Positions 32,255-34,472 of a stretch of 64,000 nt of DNA are shown piece after piece. Position 1 is the stretch's first letter, and each line of letters begins with the position of its first letter. The DNA lies in NCBI GenBank assembly GCA_009841255.1, contig VXMD01000032.1:1-64000 (forward strand), written 5' to 3'. Origin of the DNA: Candidatus Poribacteria bacterium. GTDB lineage: Bacteria; Poribacteria; WGA-4E; WGA-3G. Position numbers and translations under genes: made by a program. The notes below the pieces were generated by a model. The model was given only the letters and a program-made list of their open reading frames with translations, did not search any database and was not told the DNA's origin.

Positions 32255-33847
32255 TTAATCGGTGACTTCTACAGAGATTTTCGCGTGAAAAGCGTTTATC
32301 TCTCCTATTCCACCCCATTGGTTCCCAGTCACACACAATTTAAAGCGTTGACCGCGCTCGAACTGATACGTAAGTTGCCCAGTTTGACCGGGGAATATGT
32401 TCCAGATTCTGGTCAATGCGTCAAGTGCCTTCCTGTATTCGTCACTTCTTTGACTGTTCCATACTTCAGGATCCATGCCGTCGGGAACTTTTTCTGTCGG
32501 TAGTTTTTTGTCTCCGTCGAGGAGGTGGAAACTTCCTATCGCCTCATCTCTACCGACTTGGATGTCAATGGTAAGTGTGCCACCGTCTTCAAACGTCGTG
32601 GTGTCAATGTAGACAACGGTGTAGTCTTGATGCACCGCTACCGGGGTGCGAAAGGTGTCCACCACTTCTTGTGAAGATTGTTCAGGTGTGAGGATAGTGT
32701 CGCCCAATCCTGGACGTTTTCCTTCCAGGGACGCTGTGAGAAAAAACAGATACGCTGCTATCTCGTCTTCAAACTCGCCCAAGCAATCGGGAAATTCGTT
32801 ATAGTCTATGCCCCCGAGCGGTTCAAATTCATGTGAGATAACCAAACAGTCCACCGGTGAACCTTTTTTCCAACTTTTTATAATTGCTTGTGCCAAGGCG
32901 TGTGTTGTGTCAAACGTCTTACCTTCACGCTCGCGTCGCCTTGCGATCGGTTCTCGCAAACTCGGGGTGCGTCCTAATTCCGCATTCGGGACCCACGTGT
33001 TGATGAAATTTTCGTTCAAAAATGTTATGATTCGATCTTCAGAGAGCTCACCTGCTCTCAGGCATTTGCCACTCCCTCAGCACGCCTCGTCGAAGAGCGG
33101 TCCATCTATTGAGATAACATGGATCGGTTTGTGTTGTGTCGGTGCTCTCTCCAACGCTTCCTCCAGCGATACCCAGTTAATTTGCTGAAATTTGTAAAAA
33201 CGCGCGGATAGTACGCGTTCCGCTGCTGCCTGCGTAATTGACGCCGTGAATTCGCCATTGTGAGGGGGGGTGTCAGTACAGAGTTCCATCTGTGGACAAT
33301 AGCCGATTTCCGCAAAAGTTCCGCCATCTTCTTGCGTCCAACCCGCATCAAAGTTCAGTGTCGTTGGCGGCACGTACATTTTAAAGGAGACAACCTTCTC
33401 TCGAATGTGGTCGATAACCAAGTGTCCGGTAAATTGGGACGGCGTAAACTTACCGCTCTCCATGATGAATTCTGCATGAACACGGAACACAATTTCAGCG
33501 AGTTCGTCATTATGAGCGCGCAAGCATGCCCACAACCCACGAGAATCGCCCGAATCAATCATCAGTTTCAGTTTAGGACGGGGATAGAGTTGCTTCAGTA
33601 ACGTTCGCGCGCCTTCTTCTTGAATCTCCCAACATTCACCCACCGCAATTGGTTCCGATGGCAAAAATGCTTGAAAAACCGAAGCAGGATATTGCTTTTC
33701 GGGTTCAGCGACCTGAAAGTTCGCTAACTCGTCCCATTCCACGTGGAAGTTATATTGTGTGTATTCGATCGGTGCGATGTAACCTTTGACGTTGACTTCT
33801 GCGCCCCCGCTAAGATTAAGTGTGATTTTGCTTCCTAAGGTTTCCAT
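32255..33847 (-). CDS. Selenoprotein with thioredoxin-like middle domain (in-frame UGA as Sec)
   Basis: One frame of 530 residues runs from ATG 33847 to 32255, interrupted only by UGA at 33077-33079 (residue 257). The frame is open before and after, and the protein pattern continues across it: LFDEAC-U-GSGKCLRAGELSEDRIITFLNENFINTW. This resembles thioredoxin-like proteins with a CxGxGKxLR-type redox site. Domain order: N-terminal beta-domain A (1-96), a middle region with the redox site (about 215-390), C-terminal beta-domain C (about 393-530). A SECIS-like hairpin follows the UGA. Without Sec readthrough the product would stop at 256 residues. It lies one base after the upstream gene in the guaB operon. 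Confidence 0.75.
33042..33079 (-). promoter_or_regulatory. Candidate bacterial SECIS hairpin after the UGA codon
   Basis: On the minus strand the UGA is followed 17 bases later by GAGAGC - AGGTGA - GCTCTC, a perfect 6-bp stem with a six-base loop that begins AGGU. This is like the loop of the E. coli fdhF SECIS. The loop begins 24 bases after UGA, within the range known for bacterial SECIS elements. The codons stay in frame through it. Confidence 0.6.
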
Positions 33848-33848
33848 T

Positions 33849-34472
33849 TCACTTCTCCACTACAGAAATTTTTGCGTGAAAAGCGTTTATGCACGGTTCG
33901 TCTTTCACCCAAACTCCAATAACACCTAACTTAAATAATTGACCCTTGTCGAAACCATGCTCAATTTGACGGGTGTCCCCGGGTTCACCCCATACCCAAG
34001 TAATCTTGTCTTTAGGTACTGTTTCTTCTGTGGAAAGTTCTTTATCGCCATCAAGCAAATAGAACGCCGCTTCACTATCTTCTCTACCGATTTCAACGTC
34101 AATGGTGAGGATGCCACCGTTTCCAAAGGCTGTGGTATCAATCACAACAACAGTCCAGTCCTGATGCCCTACAGTCGGTCCCCGAAAAACGTCCACCACT
34201 GTCTGCGGATGAAGTTGCTTCAGCAACTCCAGAGCACCCGCGTGCTTAATCTCCCAAGGTACACCGATAGAGATGGCTGCCTGAGGAAGAAAGTCGCAGA
34301 AAATTGAGGTGGGATACTGTTTTTCTGGTTCAGCGACTCGCAGATTTGCCAACGTATCCCAGTCTACATGGAAGTTGTATTGTGTATATTCAATCGGCGC
34401 GATGAAACCCTTGACAGACACTTCTGCGTCACTATCAAGACTGAGTATGATTTTGTTGTCAGAAGTTTTCAT
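33849..34472 (-). CDS. Paralogue of the selenoprotein lacking its middle (Sec) domain
   Basis: 207 residues. Residues 1-92 match the N-terminus of the downstream selenoprotein (FIAPIEYTQYNFHVDWDTLAN, VAEPEKQYP, LLKQLHP). Residues about 95-207 match its C-terminus (TVVVIDTTAFGNGGILTIDV, LLDGDKEL, INAFHAKISV). The whole thioredoxin-like middle is absent, and the join is near LHPQ-TVVDV. The function is unknown; the two beta-domains may bind a common partner. It lies two bases after guaB and one base before the selenoprotein gene, so the three genes are very likely one operon. Confidence 0.7.
   Translation of the reverse strand: MKTSDNKIILSLDSDAEVSVKGFIAPIEYTQYNFHVDWDTLANLRVAEPEKQYPTSIFCDFLPQAAISIGVPWEIKHAGALELLKQLHPQTVVDVFRGPTVGHQDWTVVVIDTTAFGNGGILTIDVEIGREDSEAAFYLLDGDKELSTEETVPKDKITWVWGEPGDTRQIEHGFDKGQLFKLGVIGVWVKDEPCINAFHAKISVVEK

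Follow-up and report, generated by a model that had tools for sequence, protein, structure and literature searches.

The window, a 64,000-nucleotide stretch of a Candidatus Poribacteria genome (contig VXMD01000032.1), carries on its minus strand at 32255..33847 a gene for a putative selenoprotein that resembles selenoprotein N (SELENON). The frame runs from an ATG at 33847 to a TAA at 32255, and its sole interruption is a TGA at 33077..33079; read through, it encodes 530 amino acids plus the stop, with selenocysteine (Sec) at residue 257. The initial annotation had joined two minus-strand frames of the same phase, with a UGA between them, into one gene, and this layout confirms it. The residues around the UGA are FDEAC-U-GSGKCLRAGELSEDRIITFLNENFINTW, and a TGC codon (UGC in the message) directly ahead of the TGA completes the motif Cys256-Sec257-Gly-Ser-Gly-Lys. 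The gene directly upstream ends with a TGA of its own at 33849..33851. Because TGA is the ordinary stop of this adjacent gene, the genome does not use code 4, and we ruled out that reading.

The upstream gene (33849..34472, minus strand) lacks the core of the selenoprotein: the N- and C-terminal modules are joined in frame, and residues ~89–393 are missing. In a relative (G032), eight tandem Sec copies (L144) fill the slot flanked by guaB and a polysaccharide deacetylase gene; the same slot in the window holds one intact copy and the core-less gene. The window locus is thus probably the remnant of a contracted tandem array.

We found relatives of the window protein in 64 of the 98 genomes searched. 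Among the full-length matches listed, there is one TGA and it is in the same place, apart from one further stop in two copies of a single genome. A pattern scan of contigs provided 136 copies of the site from 80 loci, all of which are named Poribacteria; the codon at the Sec site is TGA in 135 and Ser (TCA) in one, and is never Cys or Trp. Cys stands directly ahead of Sec in 183/183 contexts. Homologues run past the codon and do not end there. The Ser copy (L103:832, plus strand) is a natural full-length frame without a stop and lies beside a Sec-bearing copy. A search for Cys homologues with a CC-bearing pattern on genome contigs and with a profile against ~300 genomes outside the phylum found none.

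In 12 pairwise comparisons, omega was 0.16–0.24 upstream of the UGA and 0.09–0.16 downstream. Purifying selection is therefore at least as strong after the UGA as before it, and the part that follows the UGA is translated and selected. These data bear on the idea that the UGA is a true stop, which would leave two separate genes or a pseudogene with the downstream frame as a remnant. TGA does act as a stop elsewhere, and the internally deleted upstream neighbour demonstrates that decay occurs at this locus. We nevertheless consider this explanation highly implausible, as the same TGA is found in hundreds of copies, the downstream part is under purifying selection, and both the synonymous-site constraint on the hairpin and the complete Sec machinery described below speak against it.

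A bacterial Sec insertion (SECIS) hairpin, GAGAGC-AGGUGA-GCUCUC, is predicted at 33042..33059 on the minus strand. Its 6-bp stem, its loop starting with AGGU and its start 17 nucleotides after the UGA are exactly as the initial annotation described, and comparative pairing now backs a SECIS-type hairpin. All six pairs are formed in 177 of 183 distinct contexts, in either of two registers that are two bases apart. By comparison, resampling synonymous codons according to the family's own usage (500 trials) yielded 6.3 fully paired contexts on average and 13 at most. The constraint shows in individual codons: AGR encodes Arg +7 in 182/182 cases (29% elsewhere in the genes), GGT encodes Gly +9 in 130/130 (35% elsewhere) and CTC encodes Leu +11 in 172/183 (18% elsewhere). 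The apical loop reads [AG]G[GU]U in 162 of 163 distinct copies, and when one partner is slid out of register pairing falls from >99% to 31–78%. Compensatory changes are also apparent, with pairs 24/33 and 25/32 alternating between G-C and A-U by way of G-U intermediates. We measured covariation by shuffling codons among sequences within the same amino acid only (1,000 shuffles). Register 2, the larger class, was fully paired in 115 of 120 sequences against a shuffle mean of 99 and a maximum of 106; register 1 showed no covariation in this test (42 of 43; mean 41.1, maximum 42). The proof of the hairpin rests on comparison, since the window sequence by itself does not fold significantly (RNAfold z = −0.93, single sequence). 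An Rfam search of the window returned no match.

The host genome (5.7 Mb, 96% complete) contains selA, selB, selC and selD. A tRNA-Sec (anticodon UCA, 78 bits) adjoins selB (353 bits), selA scores 596 bits, and selD (361 bits; L056:1501-2424) is of the Sec type: an in-frame TGA occupies its catalytic codon, in the motif CAGUASK. Readthrough of the UGA as Trp or another ordinary amino acid would likewise keep the frame open, and one copy does have Ser at the site. We give this reading a negligible probability: the codon follows a Cys in a thioredoxin-like active site, a SelB-type hairpin with a GGU/GUU loop lies downstream, a dedicated tRNA-Sec is encoded, and none of the 136 sites has a Trp codon. 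The selenoprotein reading of the initial annotation is thus supported by the machinery in the genome, the retention of the UGA in homologues, selection past the UGA and the conserved hairpin. Of the two outcomes that it named as refuting, a genome lacking Sec machinery and homologues that all end at this codon, neither was observed.

The AlphaFold2 model of the window protein has a mean pLDDT of 87.4. It contains a core of ~residues 84–389 (32680..33600, minus strand), in which a beta-rich part with the motifs FR[IV]HAEF, FTG, N-x-D and P[QR]MEL is followed by a thioredoxin-like domain (~residues 203–375). This domain has the alternating strands and helices of the fold, and the vicinal Cys256-Sec257 pair sits in a loop before a helix. 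Foldseek placed it near DsbH thioredoxin-like proteins (2ju5, 7tkv; E = 3.4e-4, TM (target) 0.55), which supports the earlier suggestion of a thioredoxin-like redox centre. DsbH/DUF255 proteins are not known to have the vicinal Cys-Sec pair or the beta-rich region of SELENON. The remainder (32258..32680, minus strand) is predicted to form a C-terminal beta-sandwich module with a PPC/GOLD-like fold, for which Foldseek found GOLD and collagen-binding (PPC-like) beta-sandwiches; in paralogues this module is repeated, replaced or absent. We set aside a model of this module built from a single sequence, as its confidence was low (pLDDT 67).

The window protein has no match in Pfam or NCBIfam, and no credible match in the PDB by sequence or by profile. 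No family in these three collections covers the SELENON-like core. Strong Pfam and NCBIfam matches within the family come from extra TlpA-like tails; among the 46 members scanned, no NCBIfam selenoprotein model covers the core, and the matches that were found, in two members, come from the TlpA-like tail. Other bacterial thioredoxin-fold selenoproteins likewise place Sec within a motif of thioredoxin-like or redox type, followed by a SECIS, but the motif and sequence of the present family are different (PMC13188914, Table 1).

The pattern C-U-G-S-G-[KR]..LR...L....[IV]..LNE.F[IV]N.W of the bacterial family resembles the active site of human SELENON (SEPN1). For comparison, we used as a BLASTP query a 303-residue luminal segment of the human protein in its presumed sequence. 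This segment aligned with residues 121–375 of the window protein (E = 2e-30, 28% identity over 291 positions) and with the paralogue L035 (E = 1e-37, 31% over 262), in both cases with Sec on Sec. The presumed letters fit the published numbering at the positions that we checked against a paper, which are R291, Sec462 and R466 only: Arg291 and Sec462 are 171 residues apart, and Arg466 is Sec+4 (mutation table, PMC8967691). Arg291 and Sec462 are human disease-mutation residues, and when 46 diverse bacterial members are aligned their equivalents do not vary. The equivalents of His293 and Gly315 are likewise invariant in this alignment, and Asn340 and Arg469 have nearly invariant equivalents; the human numbering at positions other than 291, 462 and 466 is presumed.

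A selenoprotein could resemble SELENON by convergence, or only in a generic thioredoxin/DsbH-like domain. Thioredoxin-like folds are common, the structural neighbours are DsbH proteins, and one family member has a Pfam match to DsbH/DUF255 (E = 0.002). We regard this as improbable, as the alignment extends over 250–290 residues, includes the beta-rich part ahead of the thioredoxin domain and places Sec on Sec, and as the four residues equivalent to human R291, H293, G315 and U462 do not vary among the diverse members. We therefore prefer homology with SELENON. At a probability of roughly 0.9, we read the window gene from its sequence as a genuine bacterial selenoprotein of the SELENON superfamily, the UGA of which would be decoded by SelB and tRNA-Sec through the hairpin.

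The bacterial family and SELENON, which is found in animals and some algae, share a homologous core of ~250–290 residues (28–31% identity to the presumed human letters) and the active site Cys-Sec-Gly-Ser-Gly-[Lys/Arg], which is SCUG in the human protein (Sec462, R466), ACUG in the window copy and SCUG in many paralogues. They differ in several ways. None of 149 family members has an EF-hand pattern upstream of Sec, and the ER transmembrane anchor of SELENON is missing from the family; a hydrophobic N-terminal segment is absent from the window copy and present in 21 of the 149. Bacteria have no ER. The bacterial SECIS is inside the coding region, whereas that of SELENON is in the 3′ UTR. The bacterial proteins also have an extra C-terminal beta-sandwich or TlpA-like thioredoxin and occur as many paralogues per genome. 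As reported for algal SELENON, Sec is hardly ever swapped for Cys (PMC7539508). The bacterial family is homologous to SELENON and probably acts through the same active site, minus the EF-hand and the membrane anchor. The statement of the initial annotation that it knew of no named selenoprotein with this three-domain layout gives way to a bacterial SELENON homologue with an added beta-sandwich and many paralogues.

A profile of the core matched 65 of 85 Poribacteria genomes, with 1 to 16 matches per genome, ~419 in total and often in tandem. High copy counts are not assembly artefacts, because assemblies that consist of one to three contigs show them too (16 in G018, 12 in G005). Across ~300 genomes outside Poribacteria, the core profile found no strong match; the weak ones (best E = 7.8e-5) are probably generic thioredoxins. 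The contig patterns were tuned to this family, and their all-Poribacteria result does not prove absence from other phyla. Members differ in their tails: some end in a single beta-sandwich module, some in two, L037 and L076 in a TlpA-like thioredoxin, and still others carry other tails. A lipobox-like motif is present in 5 of 149 members, and the window copy has neither this motif nor a signal peptide. From these features, the family may comprise cytosolic (the window copy), secreted and lipoprotein variants; the lipoprotein-like members L080:4157-5401 and L127:62-1312 imply cell-envelope forms beside cytosolic ones. In the genome of the window itself, we observed a paralogue with a TlpA-like thioredoxin tail (L142:5121-6800, minus strand) and, beside it, a short ABC-2-permease-like gene with a similar tail (L142:6831-7541, minus strand). 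In the same genome, an ECF-type sigma factor-like protein has a selenoprotein-type beta-sandwich module as its C terminus (L139:4490-5818, minus strand).

We propose that the window protein may act as a Cys-Sec thiol/disulfide oxidoreductase. SelB and tRNA-Sec would decode the UGA under the direction of the hairpin that follows. Sec257 would most likely attack an oxidised thiol or a peroxide substrate, Cys256 would resolve the intermediate by forming a selenenylsulfide with it, and the pair would then be regenerated by a thiol reductant. The C-terminal beta-sandwich could bind a partner. The window copy would act in the cytosol, and secreted or lipoprotein forms in the envelope.

Human SEPN1-related myopathies involve mutations of SELENON, and Poribacteria are a phylum known for sponge symbionts. 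A 2007 survey described SelN as apparently animal-specific (PMC2375036), and a 2020 survey found it also in algae (PMC7539508). SELENON is not among the 119 prokaryotic selenoprotein families inventoried in 2026 (PMC13188914). Our literature search found no paper that joins Poribacteria with selenoproteins or describes a bacterial SELENON; subscription papers and preprints were outside this search, and we do not assert priority. Annotation normally treats UGA as a stop, so genes of this kind are likely to be entered as pairs of fragments and to escape notice. We lean towards the view that SELENON has a bacterial branch that is massively duplicated in Poribacteria, that gene exchange between symbionts and early animals is possible, and that the bacterial copies could serve as soluble models in which to study SELENON, whose structure and chemistry are unsolved. 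With up to 16 genes per genome, this may be the most extensively duplicated of bacterial selenoproteins. The family reopens the origin of a protein once called animal-specific, and SELENON chemistry would become open to direct assay in a soluble bacterial relative that shares its active site but has no EF-hand.
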